From contig JADFLH010000013.1 of the NCBI GenBank assembly GCA_022564515.1, forward strand, positions 1 through 32,883: DNA of 32,883 bases, written 5' to 3'. The notes under the pieces were generated by a model. It made no database searches. It saw only the letters and a list, made by a program, of their open reading frames with translations, and was not told the origin of the DNA. Shown here one piece after another: positions 1-30,390 of this stretch; the stretch's first letter is position 1, and each line of letters begins with the position of its first letter. The DNA comes from Nitrososphaerota archaeon. GTDB taxonomy: Archaea; Thermoproteota; Nitrososphaeria; Nitrososphaerales; Nitrosopumilaceae. Position numbers and translations under genes: made by a program.

Positions 1-93
1 GGAAGATGTGAAGAACTTAGATTTGATGATAAAATTAATCTTTGTGCAAATTGTGGGTATCGAATTTCAAGGACTAGTAAGTCATATGAGTGA
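1..93 (+). CDS. C-terminal end of a zinc-ribbon-like protein (partial)
   Basis: An open frame enters from the left edge and stops at TGA 91-93, giving 30 residues. They include a lone Cys (RCEEL) and a CANCGY knuckle, which looks like the distal half of a zinc ribbon. The stop overlaps the ATG of the next gene (86-88), so the two may be translationally coupled. The function cannot be named from this fragment. Confidence 0.5.
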   Translation, partial: GRCEELRFDDKINLCANCGYRISRTSKSYE

Positions 94-367
94 AATTTCA
101 CAATTAATCAACGTTGTAAAAGAATCAGCTTGTGATATCTACAAGGGATTAGGAGCTGGTTACAATGAAACTATCTATGAAGAAGCTATGGCATTAGAGT
201 TTAGAGAGAGAAAAATCAATTATGATGTAGAAAAAAACACCGAGATATTCTATAAGGGTGTCAAAGTTGGTATCCATAGGCTTGATTTTATTGTAGAAAA
301 CAAACTAGTAGTGAATTGTCTACTAGTAAGTTCGTTTGTAAAGAAACATATCTTTCCAGAAATCTAG
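86..367 (+). pseudogene. GxxExxY-family protein, truncated
   Basis: From ATG 86 the product has 93 residues. The N-terminal two thirds carries the GxxExxY family signature: GLGAGYNETIYEEAMALEF, then a YKGVKVG strand and the RLDFIVENKLVV strand. This family is related to PD-(D/E)xK nucleases, and its members are usually about 120-130 aa. After the Asp-containing strand the expected Glu-Leu-Lys motif and C-terminal half are missing. The reading instead runs NCLLVSS to a stop. The break coincides with a perfect 7-bp inverted repeat, CTAGTAG (305-311) and CTACTAG (320-326). The reading frame can be extended upstream to 8, but ATG 86 begins the conserved domain. I infer a non-functional remnant. 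Confidence 0.6.
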
Positions 368-439: not shown

Positions 440-928
440 ATGGGTAAACAACTTTGTTTTCTTTGCAGTAAAGGAATGGGATGGAGAGAAATAAAAAGTT
501 CACCAGAAGACCTTGAAATGAGAAAGATGGAAATTCCTCAAAATATGACTGAGAATGATAGAGTTTGTCTGGATTGTTATGTAAAATTAGAAGAACCCCA
601 TCAACAACAAGAACAAGAACGAAAACAAGAACTGAGTCAAGAAAAAATTGCAGAATTTAAAGCAAGATATGATGAAATTAATGATAGGTCAGAAGAATAC
701 AAAAGACATTGGGACAAGGGTGGTGTTATTCAATTCAAGAATGAGAGAATTGCCATTTTACAGAGAAAGTTTGGACAACAAGTTCAATTCATTGTTGCTT
801 ATGATGATTTAGTAAAAGAGGGTTATAGATTAATGGCAATTGATGAAGGAAAAGAGGCTAGTGGTGGTGGACGGGCAGGTGGTGCTAATGCATATTTTTA
901 TTTCCAAAAGGTAAAATCTGATAGTTAA
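440..928 (+). CDS. Cys-rich coiled-coil protein of unknown function
   Basis: 162 aa from ATG 440. Two Cys pairs near the N-terminus (CFLC at residues 6-9 and CLDC at about 43-46) look like a small zinc-binding fold. Residues about 50-95 are Gln/Glu/Lys-rich and probably helical or coiled coil. A compact C-terminal part follows, with a GGGRAGG stretch before the end. It does not match a family I recognise. It lies between the truncated GxxExxY gene and the integrase remnant, so it may be accessory cargo. Function unknown. Confidence 0.6.
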   Translation: MGKQLCFLCSKGMGWREIKSSPEDLEMRKMEIPQNMTENDRVCLDCYVKLEEPHQQQEQERKQELSQEKIAEFKARYDEINDRSEEYKRHWDKGGVIQFKNERIAILQRKFGQQVQFIVAYDDLVKEGYRLMAIDEGKEASGGGRAGGANAYFYFQKVKSDS

Positions 929-986: not shown

Positions 987-1406
987 TCAGTCTTCGTATA
1001 GTAATTTTTTTAGTTTTTGGAATTTCTCACTCTTTAAAAATTCTTTATCAGGATCATTTTCTAATGATTTAACATATTCACGTTCAGATGCAATAGCACG
1101 TTTTAATGACTCGCTATTTCTTTCAACAACTCTGTCATTGACTTCTGCAAGAAGTTTCTGATGGTATTCCTCAATTTTTACTGCTATCCCATCATCCATT
1201 TCTTCCCTTGCTCTTTGAAGTTCATCTCTCAATCTTGATGTTTCATCACCATTGTTGAGATAGTTTGAAACTCTTGAAAAGATGTTGATCAGTTCTGATG
1301 CTTTGCTGTACTCCCTTCTTGATTTTTCTGGATATAGTTTGTCTTGTTTTTCATAGGAATCACTCCACCTTATGACCAATAACAAGGTCACAAACGTAAT
1401 CAGCAC
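987..1406 (-). pseudogene. Integrase remnant: C-terminal tyrosine and coiled-coil tail
   Basis: This piece contains the WSDSYEKQDKLYPEKSRREYSKAS segment (written here only to locate the Tyr nucleophile) followed by a long Glu/Lys/Arg-rich helical tail of about 90 residues. The hydrophobic MLITFVTLLLVIR start is an out-of-frame reading of the HxxR...GH region and not a membrane segment. A C-terminal coiled coil after the Tyr occurs in some thaumarchaeal integrases, as far as I recall. Confidence 0.6.
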
Positions 1407-1442
1407 AATCAGAAACCAAGAGTGTTGACTTTAGCAAATCTC

Positions 1443-2633
1443 TTAATTCATGACCGTTTTTTCGCTTCGGTCTTGAAGCCTGTTTCCTGCAATGGTTTCC
1501 TGTATTCCTGCCTTTCTTGCCAGTCTTGGAACTAGCCTCGAAACCCAATCAATTGATAACATTTCATTATTTCTTGTAACAAACATTGGATTTCCATTTT
1601 GAATAAAATCTGATTTGCCTCTAAGGGATGACTCATCAACGCCTTTTCTCGTATTGGTCTTGATGTAAACATCGTGCCTGTAGTTGAGGTATTCTTGTAT
1701 TGATTTTATTGCATCACGTTCCAAGTAGCCAGTATGCGTGTAACCTGTTTTCACTCTGGATAATCTGATTGGAACTGGACATTTTGACAAATCCCAATTC
1801 TCATAGTCAGTCATTCCAAACCATTTTACTAACTGTTCCCACGCTTGGAAGTTGAATCTGTCTGCAAATGTTGAGGAATCTAATCCACGATGAAACTTGC
1901 ATAATACAACTACTTTTTCTAACGGACTTGCTTTTCCTTGAACAATTATTTTATGAACATCATCAAGAGATACTGTCGCATTTTCATTTTCTTCAGAATA
2001 ATCTGCATGATTATTGTAAGGACTATACTTGAATTTGATAGGACTGTTATTCTTTTCAAAATATGATAAGATTGCACAATGTTTGTTGACCATGTATTTT
2101 GCACTACATTTTTTGTGCATATCATCCATCAAGAACATCTTGATTATTCTAATAAAATCAGAATCAGCGTTCATTGAATCCTGAAATAGTTTTAGGAAGT
2201 GTTCTATTCCTTGTAAAGTAACCTTTGTTTTTTCTCTTTTGAAAACATCAACATCAATCTGTCTTGTAATTGTAAACTCGAAGGTCTTGCCATATAACCA
2301 GTTGTTAAAGTAGTGTAATTGTAAAAGATAATGCCTTCTTGTAGTGTTGTCTTTGTGTTTTTTTGATCCTAGATTCTTGTATTTCCCACCCCTCAACTGA
2401 TTGGCAAAATATTGCATTGATTCAAGATTGGAAAAATCAATAAATGATATTGGTTTTGTTTCGACATATTTTAGCAGACCAAGTTCTCTGCCAATCTTGA
2501 TCCCTTTTGAAACCGTAAATTGACAAGCATTGATTTTGTTATTGCTTCGTCTGGTCAGTTTATCTGCGTTGGTTTCGATGAATTGTTTTGGTTGGAATTG
2601 ATCCCCTTTTTTGAACAGTTTAACACATTCCAA
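1443..2633 (-). pseudogene. Integrase remnant: core-binding and first catalytic part
   Basis: This is the longest uninterrupted piece of the broken integrase (396 codons from a TTG). It carries the SAM-like core-binding domain and the first catalytic Arg (HRGLDSSTF) and Lys (RVKTGYTH). It ends prematurely at TVMN just after the A6 run. In-frame coding sense continues upstream of the TTG to a TGA at 2679-2681, which shows the real start lies further upstream in another frame. Confidence 0.65.
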
Positions 2634-2731
2634 AACAGCAGGTGTTGCCTTGATCCTCCGTGTTTTTCTGGTTGATATTCATCAATTACTAGATAGATTT
2701 TGCTTGGCATGAGGGGTATAATTCTAGTAAT

Positions 2732-2741: not shown

Positions 2742-2802
2742 AATGTTCGTTAAACAAGTGTCAAATTATTCTTACCAAAAATAGAAACCTTACTAACACT
2801 TA

Positions 2803-3690
2803 GTGGGTTATACAGATCCTAAAAATTATGGCATGAGCAACAACAATATCGCTCTAGTTGGAAAACAAGTAAAGGATATGTATGGTACCTACATAGGTAG
2901 AGTCATCGGAACTATTACCGACATTGATGGCACCACACAGACAGTAGGCATTGACTGCGGTTCAAAAGGTCTACAGCAAATTCCTTTCGAACAAGTTGTA
3001 GTACAAGGAGATTTTGTTATTTTCATTCCTAAATGGAGACTTGAATCACAAAGGGTTTTACGAGAAAAAGGATTGACAATTAGACGCTTGAAGGCTTTAA
3101 TGAATATTGTTTCTGATAATGACGAAATGAAAGAAGATGCAGAAATAATTCATGAAAAATACAAATCACATCTTTCAACGTTAGAAGAAACTGAAAAACA
3201 AATCAAGGCAAAGCTAGAATCAAGACTTGAAGAGCTAAGCGAACAAATGAAATCAATCAAGATGCTTATATTTGACGCAAAAGTTCAATGTAAGAGCAAC
3301 GAAATTTCTGAACAAACATTTGAATCAGTTAAGACACTGTCAACAGAATTAATTGAGCACATAACTCATGAATCAGCTGAAATTTCTAATGTGCAAAGAC
3401 GTATTACTGATCTAAGTATGGAAGTTCAACAGGTCACTGAACTGCCTAAAGAAAAACTTCAGGAGTCTGCCGTTATTTATTTAAATACCCAGAACAATGA
3501 ACCTTCGACTGAAGCAGAACTTCCACAAGTGCCAACAAATGAACCGATTCCAGAACCAGTATCTGAACCTACTACAAACACAGTAAATTCACAACCGATT
3601 CCAGAATCATCCCAACTGAAAGCGGAGACACAGGAAAAGGAAAAGGAAACAGAAGAGTCTGACTGGTTGGCAAGAATGGAAGCACAATAG
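2803..3690 (+). CDS. cdvA: CdvA, cell division protein A (PRC-barrel, coiled coil)
   Basis: 295 aa from GTG 2803; ATG 2833 is an alternative that would drop ten residues. Residues about 18-78 form a PRC-barrel (GKQVKDMYGTYIGRVIGTI through FVIFIPKW). A long helical/coiled-coil region covers about 85-215, a Pro/Glu/Thr-rich linker about 230-285, and the C-terminus ends DWLARMEAQ. This order matches archaeal CdvA, which binds the membrane and DNA at mid-cell and recruits CdvB (ESCRT-III) through a C-terminal peptide. The family is known for standing apart from cdvB/cdvC in Thaumarchaeota, and neither is nearby here. That the terminal peptide is the CdvB-binding motif is inference. Confidence 0.85.
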   Translation: MGYTDPKNYGMSNNNIALVGKQVKDMYGTYIGRVIGTITDIDGTTQTVGIDCGSKGLQQIPFEQVVVQGDFVIFIPKWRLESQRVLREKGLTIRRLKALMNIVSDNDEMKEDAEIIHEKYKSHLSTLEETEKQIKAKLESRLEELSEQMKSIKMLIFDAKVQCKSNEISEQTFESVKTLSTELIEHITHESAEISNVQRRITDLSMEVQQVTELPKEKLQESAVIYLNTQNNEPSTEAELPQVPTNEPIPEPVSEPTTNTVNSQPIPESSQLKAETQEKEKETEESDWLARMEAQ

Positions 3691-3753
3691 CTTTTTAATT
3701 CGTGTTTTTTCTTTTGGAAATTTTCTATGGTTTTCTATTTTTGTATTTTCAAA

Positions 3754-3777
3754 TTAACATTTGATACGAACTTTAAA
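3754..3777 (-). repeat. 24-bp intergenic dyad element, copy 1
   Basis: On plus it reads TTAACATTTGATACGAACT followed by TTAAA, with the core in the orientation TTTGATACGAAC. It starts 63 nt after the cdvA stop and is the only copy with this orientation on plus. The strand given refers to the CAGTTCGTATCAAATGT reading. Confidence 0.7.
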
Positions 3778-3796
3778 TGAGAAATTTACATTAGCA

Positions 3797-3889
3797 TTAG
3801 TAATGGGAACCACATTTTACTTTACCATTCCAAAAAATGTGTTTACATGATGTAATGCATACCACTCCATCGTGATAACGAGCTGCCAT
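3797..3889 (-). CDS. Possible 30-residue Cys/His-rich micro-protein
   Basis: A short minus-strand frame from ATG 3889 (or TTG 3892) to TAA 3797-3799. The peptide has Cys at 11, 15 and 26 and His at 6, 17 and 29 (VVCITSCKHIFW, then KCGSHY). This could hold one zinc ion. It fills part of the 338-base gap between cdvA and fen1. It is too short to prove from one sequence. Confidence 0.4.
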   Translation of the reverse strand: MAARYHDGVVCITSCKHIFWNGKVKCGSHY

Positions 3890-4028
3890 CAATCTAGGCT
3901 GATTTTTTCTAAAAACTAGGCAAATCTGTAAAATCCCAATTTGGCATGTAAAATCATCGATTATTTTATGTATTTAGCTCCATTGACACGTGTAAAGTCA
4001 GCTATTGCAAATTATGTGTTCTATTGGT

Positions 4029-5054
4029 CTATGAGAACCACTTTTCTAGCGTTTGACTCTTTCGTTCAATTGATTTTTTTAATCTGTTTAGTGATGTCTG
4101 CACTCGGTCAAATGAAAAACTCCGTTCATCTACTAGATATTTGATGATTGCATCGAAATTGATTGTTTCGAATTTAATTTCAGAAACATGGGCAACTTTT
4201 GGTTCTAGAAATATCCTTCGAATTTGCTCATAATCAACTTCAGATAATTTATCCTGAATCTGAGGAATCTTTTCAAGTTTTGAGTGTTCTTTGATCATTT
4301 TAAGTGCAGTTTTGGGTCCTATTCTTGGAAAACCATCTGGATTGAAATCTGTACCAATTAAGATCCCAATATCAACAATCTGTTCTCTAGTTACTCCTAA
4401 TTCTTTGAGAGTCTTTTCATAATCAATAATTTCTGGAACAATCTCGATGTATGTATTTCGATTGGGAATTTTTCTTCTTCCACTATTTGAAAAATTTCTT
4501 ACCAGTCTTTTTGCACCAAATAAAACCGAGTCAAAATCTTGGCTTGCTGTTGCATACGCTTGACCTGTTTTTGTTAAATGAGCTGCAGTTGACTCTCCTT
4601 CTGAGGGCGCATCGATATAGGGAATTCCAAACAAACTTAAGATTTTCTTAGAATCTTCTACCATAGTGTCTTTCATAACACTTGTTTGCTGAGCATATTT
4701 TCTTGCATCCTGAAGGTTTCCTTGAGATATAGCTTTTTCATATTTTATCGTGGCGTCTCTTTTGATCTGTCTTCTTCGTTCTATTTCTACTGACTTTAAT
4801 GATGGTGGTTTACCATCAAAAACATAAACGGGTTTGATTCCAATGGAAAGGAACCTTATATTTCTATAAAAAAGACCACTTAGATGACTTGTAACTCTAC
4901 CATTTGAATCAGATAGATAACTCCCATCAGGACCTCTGATAATTGCTAAAAATTGGTAAATTGCATTGTATGCATCAATTGCAACCACCTTTGAAGCAAA
5001 AAATTCTAAATTTGTCTTCTCTCTTACTATGAGTTGTTTAAGCTTTAATCCCAA
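4029..5054 (-). CDS. fen: Flap endonuclease 1 (FEN1)
   Basis: 341 aa from TTG 5054 (MGLKLKQLI), the usual archaeal length. It removes 5' flaps during Okazaki-fragment maturation and base excision repair. Active-site acidic residues are visible at D27 (AIDAYN), D80 (VFDGKPP), E152 and E154 (PSEGES), D173 and D175 (SQDFDS) and D236 (GTDFNP). The helix-hairpin-helix region follows ([10 protein letters not shown]). The C-terminus ends SQTLEKWFS, a PCNA-binding box in which Ser stands where Gln is common. It converges on cdvA. Confidence 0.95.
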
Positions 5055-5476: not shown

Positions 5477-5689
5477 ATGGGGGTTATTGCAAAGGGAGCA
5501 AAATGTAACGTTGATGGATGTACAAACGATGGTGTTAGATCTTTAAACACAACAAAGGTTGAGAATGCTGGAGTCGAGGTAAACTCTGTAGGCAAAAAAA
5601 CCGTTCTATGCAAGCCGCATTACAAAGAATATAAAAAAGGATCTAAAGACGACAGAGACCTTGAACGAGCAAGATATGACAAGTTTTAA
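5477..5689 (+). CDS. Small zinc-binding protein of unknown function
   Basis: 70 aa from ATG 5477. Cys at residues 10 and 15 (KCNVDGCTND) and a later CKPHYKEY give four likely zinc ligands (C, C, C, H). The C-terminus is highly charged. The fold resembles the small Cys/His proteins common in this archaeal group, but I cannot name a family. A TATA box at leaderless spacing supports real expression. It converges on the deoxyhypusine synthase gene with only 8 nt between stops. Confidence 0.7.
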   Translation: MGVIAKGAKCNVDGCTNDGVRSLNTTKVENAGVEVNSVGKKTVLCKPHYKEYKKGSKDDRDLERARYDKF

Positions 5690-6846: not shown

Positions 6847-7239
6847 ATGAAAATAGCTCGAATAATTAGTTATATGAAGATTATAGATATTCCAAAACCC
6901 AATCGAGTAAATCGCAAACCAGATGAGATAAAAACCATTTTTTCATCAGGAAATTTTTTTGAACAAGGATTTTTGGTTAAGAAGGTGGAACTAAGATTAT
7001 ACAAAGAAAAGAATGATGAAAAATTAGGACCTTATTCCTTGATTACAACACTAATTGAGACTGATAAAGGCTCTATTGAAATGATTTATGATGAAGGTTT
7101 CAGAGGTGAGAACTCTCTAGAACAAGCCTCAGAACTATTAACAAAAAACTTGGGAATATCGGGACTAGTTTTGAGGTCTCTGATCTCATTAAAAGAAGAA
7201 TTAAAAAAAAGTGATGTTTCTAACAAAAGTTCTGTGTAA
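6847..7239 (+). CDS. Conserved-looking protein of unknown function
   Basis: 130 aa from ATG 6847; a second ATG at 6874 (MKIIDIPKPNR) may be the true start. It reads as one small alpha/beta domain with alternating strands (KKVELRLYKE, YSLITTLIET, SIEMIYDEGF) and a final helical stretch. There is no membrane segment or metal motif. It is divergent from the DHS gene, and its 3' end overlaps the CAP-domain gene by 20 nt in convergent orientation. Confidence 0.6.
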   Translation: MKIARIISYMKIIDIPKPNRVNRKPDEIKTIFSSGNFFEQGFLVKKVELRLYKEKNDEKLGPYSLITTLIETDKGSIEMIYDEGFRGENSLEQASELLTKNLGISGLVLRSLISLKEELKKSDVSNKSSV

Positions 7240-7867
7240 TATACAACTCGTTATTTGAAATTACTGCTCCAATTCCTTCATTTTCATAAAAGCTGTAGAG
7301 CAGATTTTTTCTATGTTCTGGACTTAGCATCCAAGATTCCACAATCCTTTTCCCAAGGCCTGTTGGTTCCCCTAAACCTGAAATTAATGCCAAGTTTTCT
7401 CCTCCTTTCAATATTTTTCCATCTGGTATCGATATATTACATTCAAAATTTACATCTGCATACCTATCAACTACATCTTTTCCATCTGGAGTGTAATGAG
7501 AATAATAAATTCTGTTTATCATATCGTGACTGTGTTTTTTTGCAATTTCTGCCAAACTTGAGTCCCATGCAACTGGATTCAATCCATGTAAATCCCTTTG
7601 CTCATTTACGAACCAATGAACCTCAAGGGCGATTTTTTCTGTATCAATCACAGCTTCTTCTGTCACCAAAAATGATTTAATCAAAACATTTTCAGACATC
7701 GCAAAATTCGAATTTGAAATTATATGTGAGATAGATTTAGCTATACTATCACTTCCAGAATTTGCAAAAATTATTGCCATACTGGCCATCAAAACTAGTA
7801 TCACTGCTAACCATGCTATAGTTGACAAATCTGTTCTAATCTTGAGATAATAGTTTTCAGTTTTCAT
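7220..7867 (-). CDS. Membrane-anchored CAP (SCP/PR-1-like) domain protein
   Basis: 215 aa from ATG 7867. One hydrophobic segment at residues 16-36 (IAWLAVILVLMASMAIIF) probably anchors the protein with its domain outside the cell. Residues about 90-215 form a CAP domain: VNEQRDLHGLNPVAWDSSLAEIA, KKHSHDM with YYSHYTPDG, KGGENLAL, ESWMLSPEHRKNLL and a terminal YITQNFC (separate motifs in order). The conserved His and Glu residues of the CAP cavity are present. Extracellular CAP proteins in prokaryotes are little characterised. The function here is open. Confidence 0.8.
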   Translation of the reverse strand: MKTENYYLKIRTDLSTIAWLAVILVLMASMAIIFANSGSDSIAKSISHIISNSNFAMSENVLIKSFLVTEEAVIDTEKIALEVHWFVNEQRDLHGLNPVAWDSSLAEIAKKHSHDMINRIYYSHYTPDGKDVVDRYADVNFECNISIPDGKILKGGENLALISGLGEPTGLGKRIVESWMLSPEHRKNLLYSFYENEGIGAVISNNELYITQNFC

Positions 7868-24602: not shown

Positions 24603-26519
24603 ATGGATTCCAATAGTTTTCACATTGGTCTAGGTAACAATGATACTGAAACAAGAAAAAAAGCAGATTCAGATTTTGTTTTGTTTTGGAATGACCAGGC
24701 CAAGAATTTATCTTGGTTTAAACCATGGGAAAAAACTTTGGATTGGAAACCACCATTTGCAAAATGGTTTGTTGGTGGAATTCTTAATGCGTGCTACACA
24801 ACTCTGGATGTTCACCTAGAGAAAAGATCTCAGAAACCTGCTATCTTGTGGGAAGGTGAAAATGAAGAAAAAAGAGTTTTGACATATAGAGATCTCTGGA
24901 TACAAGTTTGCAAGTTTTCAAATGTTTTAAAATCATTAAGCATTAAGAAAGGTGACCGCATTACAATATACCTTCCTATGATTCCAGAATTACCTATATC
25001 CATGCTTGCATGTGCAAGAATTGGAGCAATACATTCAGTAGTGTTTTCAGGATTCAGTTCAAATTCTCTTAAAGATAGAATTAATGATTCAAAGTCAAAA
25101 ATTGTCATTACTGCTGATGGGGGATATAGACGAGGGGCCGTTGTTAAGCTAAAAGATGTAGTAGATGAGGCGATCAAAGAACTTGAATTTGTAGAGAATG
25201 TAATTGTTGTTGAGAGGGCAAAAAACAAAGTCAGTATAAACTCTAAAGATAAATGGTGGAACGTGTTAATGAAAGATTCTTCTTCGAAATGCGAACCTGA
25301 AAAAGTTGAAAGTACTCATCCTCTGTACATACTTTATACATCTGGCACTACTGGAAAACCTAAAGGAGTTCTTCATGGTACAGGAGGATACCTAACTTAC
25401 CTATATTCCACATTCAAGTGGGTCTTTGACATAAAAGATTCTGATATTTATTTTTGTACTGCGGATATAGGATGGGTTACAGGCCATAGCTATATTGTTT
25501 ATGGTCCATTGCTTCATGGTGCAACCCAAGTCATGTATGAAGGTGCTCCAGATTTTCCAAATCCTTCAAGATGGTGGAAAATAATTCAGAAATACAAGGT
25601 CACAATTCTTTATACAACACCAACAGCACTTAGGATGTTTATTCGATTCGGTGAATCAATTCTTAATTCCATTGATTTATCCTCTTTGCGCTTGTTAGGT
25701 ACAGTTGGAGAACCAATCAATCCAGAAGTGTGGCGTTGGTATTTCGAAATAATTGGAAAGAAAAAGTGCCCCATCGTCGATACTTGGTGGCAGACCGAAA
25801 CTGGAGGAATAATAATTTCTCCTCTTCCTGGACTTGAAACAGTTCCACTCAAGCCAGGTTCTGCAACGCTGCCAATTCCAGGGATAAATGTTGCTGTACT
25901 AGATGAGAATGGAATGGAGCTACCAACTAACACAAAGGGATACCTAGTTATTCGAAATCCATGGCCTGGAATGCTTTTGACATTATGGGCTAATGACGAA
26001 AAATACAAGAAAGTGTATTGGTCTAAATACAAAAATATCTACGACGTAGGAGATTTTGCAATAAAAGATAATGACGGCTACTTTTGGATACTTGGAAGAG
26101 CAGACGATGTCTTAAAGATAGCAGGACACAGGATAGGTACTGCCGAGGTAGAAAGCAGTACTGTGTCACACCATGGTGTGGCAGAGGCTGCTGTATGTGG
26201 AATTCCTCATGAGATAAAGGGCGAAGTCATCATTGCATTTGTTGTTTTAAAAGAAGGAATCCAAAAAAATGATAATTTAAAAAAAGAAATTATTAATTCC
26301 ATTCGTACTGGGGTCGGCCCTATCGCAACTCCAGAACAACTTTACTTTGTTCCAAAGCTACCAAAGACTAGAAGTGGTAAAATAATGAGACGTCTACTCA
26401 AGGCTATTGCAATGAATGAGAAAATAGGAGATGTCAGTACCCTTGAGGATGAAGCCGCAGTAAGTGAGATACAGGATACAATTGAAGAGCTTAAACATTC
26501 AATTCAACAAAACAAGTAG
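24603..26519 (+). CDS. acs: Acetyl-CoA synthetase (AMP-forming)
   Basis: 638 aa from ATG 24603. It makes acetyl-CoA from acetate, ATP and CoA through an acetyl-adenylate. Motifs: YTSGTTGKPKG (ATP loop), DTWWQTETGG (with the Trp that keeps the acyl pocket small and favours acetate), GRADDVLKIAGHRIGTAEVES and, near the end, PKTRSGKIMRRLLKAI with the catalytic Lys that acetylation silences in homologues. Propionate or 3-hydroxypropionate are possible alternatives in this lineage because of its 3-hydroxypropionate/4-hydroxybutyrate cycle. Confidence 0.92.
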   Translation: MDSNSFHIGLGNNDTETRKKADSDFVLFWNDQAKNLSWFKPWEKTLDWKPPFAKWFVGGILNACYTTLDVHLEKRSQKPAILWEGENEEKRVLTYRDLWIQVCKFSNVLKSLSIKKGDRITIYLPMIPELPISMLACARIGAIHSVVFSGFSSNSLKDRINDSKSKIVITADGGYRRGAVVKLKDVVDEAIKELEFVENVIVVERAKNKVSINSKDKWWNVLMKDSSSKCEPEKVESTHPLYILYTSGTTGKPKGVLHGTGGYLTYLYSTFKWVFDIKDSDIYFCTADIGWVTGHSYIVYGPLLHGATQVMYEGAPDFPNPSRWWKIIQKYKVTILYTTPTALRMFIRFGESILNSIDLSSLRLLGTVGEPINPEVWRWYFEIIGKKKCPIVDTWWQTETGGIIISPLPGLETVPLKPGSATLPIPGINVAVLDENGMELPTNTKGYLVIRNPWPGMLLTLWANDEKYKKVYWSKYKNIYDVGDFAIKDNDGYFWILGRADDVLKIAGHRIGTAEVESSTVSHHGVAEAAVCGIPHEIKGEVIIAFVVLKEGIQKNDNLKKEIINSIRTGVGPIATPEQLYFVPKLPKTRSGKIMRRLLKAIAMNEKIGDVSTLEDEAAVSEIQDTIEELKHSIQQNK

Positions 26520-28917: not shown

Positions 28918-28938
28918 TCAGAATTATTGGAAGTAAAA

Positions 28939-29247
28939 CTATTCCAATTTTTCTATTGTTTCCAAAAGTTGTTCATGATGGCTTGAAGTAAGTTTATCTA
29001 TTTTCTTTTTTATATTTGGAGTAAACTCTTCATTGGGAAACTCTGAATGAAAAGCCTTTTCAATTTCCTTGTCAACTTCTTCTCTAAGAAAAGTTCGTAG
29101 ATTTTCGAGTCGATTTTCATAATCAAGTTGCATCTTTAACATTTCCATGAATTTAGGATCTAGGTTGTGTAAAAGTTTAATCCATTTTTGCATAATAGTT
29201 TCTATTTCTTTGCGAAAAGCGTCAGAAAATTCCAATAAACTTAACAT
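28939..29247 (-). CDS. Small helical protein of unknown function
   Basis: 102 aa from ATG 29247. The frame opens at 29334, but that would leave almost no room for the promoter of the divergent DPS-like gene (TATA 29307-29314). The product is almost entirely helical, amphipathic and Glu/Lys-rich (FRKEIETIMQKWIKLL, ENLRTFLREEVDKEIEKAF), with no Cys or membrane segment. It ends SSHHEQLLETIEKLE. It resembles a bundle protein; the role is unknown. Confidence 0.6.
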   Translation of the reverse strand: MLSLLEFSDAFRKEIETIMQKWIKLLHNLDPKFMEMLKMQLDYENRLENLRTFLREEVDKEIEKAFHSEFPNEEFTPNIKKKIDKLTSSHHEQLLETIEKLE

Positions 29248-29306
29248 CAATCTATTATTATTTAAAATAATTTCTGAGTGAAATTTTCCAAAAACACTGA
29301 TCCATG

Positions 29307-29314
29307 TTAAATAA
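29307..29314 (+). promoter_or_regulatory. TATA-like element of the DPS-like gene
   Basis: TTAAATAA is centred about 28 nt before ATG 29338, leaderless spacing. Confidence 0.5.
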
Positions 29315-29337
29315 GACGACCCATAAATAATCACAAC

Positions 29338-29931
29338 ATGTCGACAAATTACAAAGAAAAGATAGGAGAACTTGTAGGAATTGAAGTTATAGAAAAAAAT
29401 GGTATAGACGTAGAGAAACTCAGAAAACTCATTTTAGCTGGAGTCGGAGCTGAATTTTTCACGTATTATTACTATACAATACTACGAATGCATTGTACGG
29501 GTCGTGATGGTGAAGGCATTAAAGAAATAGTCGAAGATGCCAGAATAGAGGACAGAAATCATTTTGAAGCAATGGTTCCAAGACTTTATGAGATTGGAGG
29601 AGCACTTCCAAGAGACGTTAGAAACTTTGCAGACCTCGCAGGTTGTCCTGATGCATTTCTGCCAGACGACTGGGAAAATGTAGAAGAGATTTTGAAAGTT
29701 CTTCTTGAAGCAGAAAGATGTGCAATTCGTTCTTGGGGTGAAGTATGTGACTATACTGCCAGTAAGGATCACCGAACTTATGCCATAGCTCAGGCTATAA
29801 TGCAAGAAGAGATAGAACACGAAGCTTGGTTTGTAGAACTGCTTACAAAGAGACCTTCAGGACACTTTAGAAGATCATTTGTTGGACAGTCTCCACACAC
29901 GAAAGGACATGGTGGCCTCCAACACCTGTAA
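29338..29931 (+). CDS. DPS-like ferritin (DPSL, thioferritin type)
   Basis: 197 aa from ATG 29338. It probably oxidises Fe(II) with peroxide and stores the iron in a cage, protecting DNA. Ferritin-fold ligands: E39 (GAEFF), E71 and H75 (RIEDRNHF), E124/E126 (LLEAER), E157 and H161 (EEIEH). C128 and C137 ([13 protein letters not shown]) match the Cys pair that marks archaeal DPSL near the iron site. The C-terminus is Gly/His-rich ([11 protein letters not shown]), perhaps an extra metal site. It starts a same-strand redox trio with Rieske and peroxiredoxin genes. Confidence 0.88.
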
Positions 29932-29966
29932 CAATCTATAAAATTCCCTTTTTATTTTTATTTATC

Positions 29967-30326
29967 ATGTTTAGAGTCTGTAATGTTTCTGACATTAATG
30001 AAAATTCCTTGAACAAATTCACCATCGGAAAAAAAGATATTCTTGTGGGTAAGCTAAATGGAAAATTATTTGCATGTGATAATTCATGTCCACACAGGGG
30101 GGCATCATTGCATAAAGGAGCCTACAAAGGTAACAATGTAGTCTGTTACATGCATGATTATGAATTCGATGTTATAACAGGTAAATTGACAAATATGAAA
30201 TCCTGGAAAAAAAGTGATACTTGGGTAGAACAAAATCAAGCATGGAGAGAATCTGGGAATTTAATCATGTATGATATAGAGATAAAGCAAAATGAAGTGT
30301 ATGTTAAAATCCCACCAAATCAATGA
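29967..30326 (+). CDS. Rieske [2Fe-2S] ferredoxin
   Basis: 119 aa from ATG 29967. The Rieske cluster motif is complete: C41-P-H43-RG and C60-YM-H63-DYEF, spacing CxH-x16-CxxH. There is no signal or membrane segment, so it is soluble and cytoplasmic. It probably passes electrons to an oxygenase or reductase; the partner is not visible. It begins 35 nt after the DPS-like gene. Confidence 0.92.
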   Translation: MFRVCNVSDINENSLNKFTIGKKDILVGKLNGKLFACDNSCPHRGASLHKGAYKGNNVVCYMHDYEFDVITGKLTNMKSWKKSDTWVEQNQAWRESGNLIMYDIEIKQNEVYVKIPPNQ

Positions 30327-30390
30327 ACCGATCAAGTTTTTATTCAGAATTAAAAATAATTAATTAGGGAAATTCATTGTTACACATATT

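Follow-up and report, generated by a model that had tools for sequence, protein, structure and literature searches.

Integrated elements of Thaumarchaeota have been surveyed by Krupovic et al. (2019, PMC6563490), who describe cryptic elements with a tyrosine-recombinase integrase, short direct repeats and few recognisable genes, and who place 15 of 68 integration sites in intergenic positions. Traces of inactivated integrase genes are described for Ca. Nitrosocaldus cavascurensis (PMC5797428). Suicidal archaeal integrases of the SSV, pTN3 and pT26-2 types, as presented in PMC8371274, are not whole when integrated, since the act of integration itself cuts the gene where the attachment site lies. 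In an archaeal alpha-fucosidase gene, a single -1 shift at a stretch of A has been described (PMC8211752), and a conserved site is given as a mark of programmed frameshifts (PMC3711429).

The locus described here lies in a window of 32,883 nucleotides, the whole stretch of DNA that was analysed, corresponding to the entire contig C74 of an 80-contig genome (1.5 Mb, 95% complete). Its minus-strand gene at 2710-987 is a tyrosine-recombinase integrase that is read across three frames in four in-frame stretches. The element is like the cryptic ones described in PMC6563490, but in contrast to those its integrase is broken. It shares inactivated integrase genes with Ca. Nitrosocaldus cavascurensis as described in PMC5797428, a member of the same phylum but of a different order. 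Like the suicidal integrases of PMC8371274, the gene is not whole when integrated; here, however, the interruptions are small frame changes, and the attachment site of an intact relative lies outside the gene. The window and the alpha-fucosidase gene of PMC8211752 both show a change of frame at a stretch of A, whereas the window has three changes of two kinds that are not common to the relatives compared.

We conclude, with a probability of about 0.85, that this integrase gene belongs to a small element integrated just upstream of cdvA in a Nitrosopumilaceae-type genome, and that the gene has recently decayed. A decayed integrase is an ordinary case; a possible case of recoding is resolved here as ordinary gene decay, an intact counterpart being present at the same position on the chromosome of a relative.

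The integrase gene is divided into four stretches

Aligned frame-aware to L002, an intact relative, the gene showed exactly three frame events (-1, -1 and +1) and no stop inside the stretches, with 319 of 538 aligned residues identical (59% overall). The same number of frame events was obtained in the window integrase when the more distant L003 served as reference. All four stretches lie on the minus strand. Stretch 1 (2660-2710) encodes the first 17 residues (MPSKIY...PEKH) and aligns to the start of L002, and stretch 2 (1458-2657), the longest with 400 residues, contains HRGLD and RVKT and is 62% identical to the integrase of genome G031 over residues 2-393 of a 396-aa query. Stretch 3 (1366-1458) comprises 31 residues with HELRD and IGHKV, followed by stretch 4 (987-1364) with SDSYEKQ, which includes the catalytic tyrosine, and the C-terminal tail. 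HRGLD, RVKT, HELRD, IGH and SYEKQ, which we take to be the catalytic Arg, Lys, His-x-x-Arg, His and Tyr of tyrosine recombinases, were all found, in this order, both in the window stretches and in the aligned relatives; in the window they are spread over three stretches and not contained in one frame. The earlier note had claimed that three frame changes split the gene and that the rejoined reading restores the tyrosine-recombinase motifs. Both claims were borne out, and alignment to intact integrases, which the note had proposed as a check, showed L002 in one frame against the three stop-free frame events of the window. Stretch 2 ends short of HELRD, the IGH histidine and the catalytic tyrosine, and its product would not be expected to catalyse recombination.

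The window stretch had no match in Pfam (hmmscan) at E 0.1 or in PHROGs at E 1, and three weak matches in NCBIfam, including a XerA-type recombinase at E 0.05. The PF00589 profile scored one of five relatives above its cut-off (L009, 37.3 bits against 27.1, E 3e-9), the other four (L002-L005) reaching 13.8-23.9 bits.

Intact and broken relatives

A search of 61 genomes, including the window's own, gave integrase matches in 8, and a scan of genome contigs identified 19 loci with related integrases, mostly labelled Nitrosopumilus, Nitrosarchaeum, Nitrosopumilaceae or Thaumarchaeota. One of the loci, L018, lies on a contig titled Deltaproteobacteria and bears an integrase of the thaumarchaeal family, possibly a binning error. 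A scan of viral contigs with the window integrase stretch found no relative. The frame-aware alignment took in 23 relatives (L002-L005, L008, L009, L011-L015 and L017-L028); L010 and L016, apparent repeats of L003 and L004, were excluded, as were the more distant L006 and L007, whose frames stay open for 427 and 514 aa.

Of these 23 relatives, 17 were free of frame and stop events; one of the 17, L019 (frame of 348 aa), was aligned only over residues 85-386 of 553. L004 showed a single event close to its end, yet its own 494-aa frame is open. The remaining copies carried frame and stop events that together numbered 2 in L021, 1 in L022, 3 in L027, 7 in L028 and 4 in L008, so that breakage is not uncommon in this integrase family. 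In L003 coordinates, the window events fall at about residues 17, 389 and 426, and those of L008, L022 and L028 between 71 and 333, so that none of these three shares a break site with the window; for L021 and L027 the reference was L017, and their event positions are not in L003 coordinates. Three frame events in the window against none in the 17 relatives is the pattern of a pseudogene, whose breaks are not common to its intact homologues.

The same comparison bears on an option raised in the earlier note, namely a role of the frame changes in decoding, with ribosomes shifting at A runs to yield the full protein. Break 2, of the -1 type and at an A run, has a superficial likeness to the archaeal alpha-fucosidase case (PMC8211752), but the intact relatives, including the one at the same chromosomal site, are read in a single frame, and the broken ones placed in the same coordinates as the window have their events elsewhere. 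Moreover, one protein would require two shifts of -1 and one of +1 in series, and the break site is not kept among the relatives, whereas a conserved site is described as marking programmed shifts (PMC3711429). On these grounds we consider decoding by frameshifting highly improbable and do not retain it.

The breaks and the A runs

Break 1 (2658-2667, minus strand) has one base fewer than L002 and was placed at about 2658-2659, adjoining the A5 run at 2663-2667; it was placed after the run because the Lys-His past the run still matches L002. Break 2 (1457-1462, minus strand) lies inside an A6 run and again has one base fewer than L002, although alignment to the more distant L003 put the event about 20 bases away. 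The codons of L002 at break 2 are GAA AAG AAC, with a G within the stretch and no such A run; therefore the present A6 run need not derive from a longer one, and loss of an A would be one possible history among others. Break 3 (about 1365-1371, minus strand) has one base more than L002 and lies in a mixed stretch, not in a homopolymer. Judged from these alignments, one and at most two of the three breaks would be at an A run. The claim that two breaks are at A runs was therefore supported for break 2 but not for break 1, which is best placed just past its run. Likewise, the description of both as single-A losses agrees with one base fewer at each, although with the G of L002 at break 2 it would be one possible history among others.

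Breaks at or beside short A runs could also suggest phase variation, in which the runs reversibly change length and switch the integrase on and off, and one or two of the breaks have such a position. Runs of 5-6 are, however, common in this genome (847 of at least 5 in the 87.8 kb compared), break 3 is not at a run and L002 lacks such a run at break 2, so that we regard phase variation as highly improbable and set it aside.

Age and constraint

At the 38 columns that do not vary among the remaining 15 sequences, the window integrase departed once, compared with 0-4 departures for the others in the same test; there is no excess of changes at invariant positions. In relative-rate tests against L002 (n=10), eight gave chi2 values of at most 1.6, and outgroups L024 and L026 gave 4.59 and 3.69, the window side having changed more. 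L002 is 36% diverged from the window integrase, a distance at which a slight relaxation of recent date would escape detection. We counted these two values, and the limit set by this distance, against the decay reading. With transitions weighted twice, 5% of random substitutions in the stretches would produce a stop. Because no stop was found, neutral change since inactivation is estimated at less than about 58 substitutions, or 3.4% of sites (95%). Compared with the split from L002, inactivation is probably a recent event.

Sequencing error versus real breaks

The earlier note had reported no similar break in the housekeeping genes of the window, and this holds for the 32 comparable genes (24,159 bases, with 217 A/T runs of at least 5), each of which matched relatives in a single frame; the comparison covered genes of 80 aa or more with matches, and thus left out unmatched open reading frames such as 5477-5689 and 7220-7867. 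We also compared a 421,397-base sample of the window's own genome with a sample of G031, in which 95 genes were comparable. The integrase had three frame events, and the other 94 genes together had two, at query residues 18 and 24; start sites are uncertain near gene starts. Stop events in the 94 genes numbered three: two lay inside insertions, at residues 19 and 53, and the third was 12 residues away from an end. The compared set contained the 847 A/T runs mentioned above, the integrase's own included. Since the 94 other genes show so few events, three in one gene are rarely expected from random error, and general sequencing error is an unlikely cause.

An intact gene might have been broken in the data by base-calling slips at A runs, or by strain-mixed assembly near the contig end. 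Consistent with this, break 2 lies in the A6 run and break 1 beside the A5 run, the amino-acid sequence of the integrase shows no loss of constraint, and the contig end together with a near copy on contig C9 hints at difficult assembly. Against it stand the 94 other genes, with two frame events, both near starts, despite 847 A/T runs, and the 217 runs in 32 unbroken window genes. The chance that all three random events would fall in the integrase among the compared window genes was p 0.0003, and two of 14 runs were broken against none of 217 (Fisher p 0.003, a post hoc test that counts break 1 as in a run). Break 3, in addition, is not at a run. Taken together, we give an origin of the breaks in sequencing or assembly, error at the integrase alone included, a small chance. 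Homopolymer error, offered in the earlier note as an option, thus fails as a general cause, with only two frame events in 94 other genes and one break outside any run. The alternative named there, decay of the element, is favoured by the existence of intact relatives, including one at this very site on the chromosome, by family copies broken elsewhere and by neighbouring genes that look shortened.

The site upstream of cdvA

The divergent neighbour of the integrase is cdvA (2833-3690, plus strand; PF18822 CdvA, E 1.8e-25), a host gene outside the element. In G031, a single-contig complete genome from another genus of the family, the intact 570-aa integrase L002 likewise begins upstream of cdvA and is oriented divergently from it. 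Among the 27 integrase loci checked (L002-L028, with available flanks), cdvA adjoins L002 only. About 13.8 kb beyond the G031 integrase lies a 97-aa gene and then a gene that we take to be thyX-like. Among five loci listed, this pair directly adjoins cdvA in G005, G002 and G003, and in G016 other genes stand next to cdvA instead. The G031 element, of about 13.8 kb, is bounded by direct repeats that match at 15 of 16 bp, GTGAATTTAATCTTAC and GTGAATTTAATGTTAC; an equally good match was obtained in 1 of 200 shuffled pairs, and G013, from the same genus as G031, has an undivided site with GTGAATTAATTCTTAC. A suicidal integrase with the attachment site inside the gene was considered and rejected, as the G031 repeat sits outside the gene, upstream of the start codon of the intact integrase.

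In the window, the candidate attachment site on the cdvA side is 2760-2775 (plus strand), homologous by position to the G031 site. The other candidate end in this genome is 4737-4752 on contig C9, adjoining a homologous 93-aa gene. The two candidates match at 12 of 16 positions across the two contigs, a level reached by 122 of 200 shuffles and thus no better than chance, so that the proposed site in this genome rests on position. By analogy with G031, where the site is shown, the element would have integrated just upstream of cdvA. Once it was integrated, its integrase would no longer have been needed for it to stay, three small indels could then have accumulated, and the element would now be unable to excise by itself.

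The block at 2776-2832 upstream of cdvA contains words resembling CTTACnAAA and TTACTAACAC, together with a TATA-like stretch. By eye, it is similar in most of 19 relatives (L030-L048), with the candidate attachment site at its edge.

A candidate attachment site just upstream of cdvA that is common to two genera is mildly new, and the position is indicated as a target of archaeal integrases. The term cdvA is absent from the main text of PMC6563490, and the text of PMC5797428 that concerns cdvA treats cell division genes and not an attachment site. More speculatively, and with considerable doubt, one family of Nitrosopumilaceae elements may, across more than one genus, attach at the edge of the cdvA-upstream block. 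Integration would then replace whatever precedes the cdvA promoter, with a possible effect on expression of the gene, and the present element would have been trapped by decay of its integrase.

Neighbouring genes and the contig start

A PDDEXK_3 family gene (86-367, plus strand) matches profile positions 2-85 of 117 (E 6e-17) and is apparently shortened at its C-terminal end, an assessment that rests on the Pfam profile because a search of 60 other genomes found no relative. For the gene at 6083-6388 of contig C9, two longer homologues align only through their last ~98 residues (131-229 and 501-597). A frame change near its start was suspected, but the alignment did not reach across one, and the gene is shown only to be shorter than these homologues. 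Both genes, which are assigned to the element, thus look shortened. The 162-aa gene at 440-928 (plus strand), by contrast, is open over its full length, matches a 154-aa frame of G035 over residues 1-157 with 51% identity and appears whole, which we counted against decay. Judging by these genes, the element looks worn in parts and not throughout.

The contig start (1-127, plus strand) is a near copy, with 125 of 127 bases identical, of C9 6744-6870 (L066) in the same genome. Past the shared 127 bases the contigs differ and C9 runs into other genes, a further point against decay. The near copy may reflect strain variation, rearrangement or a repeat; if the left end of the window and C9 meet there, the element would measure about 4.8 kb.

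Two observations concern the remainder of the window. The gene after cdvA in G031, G005 and G002 is one that we take to be acetyl-CoA-synthetase-like; in the window it lies 21 kb away (2833-5054 versus 24603-26519), and the gene order has therefore changed. The segment at 28929-30364 is 90% identical to the same-genus genome G003, whereas other long matches between the window and that genome are mostly at 71-87%, which suggests strong conservation or recent exchange.
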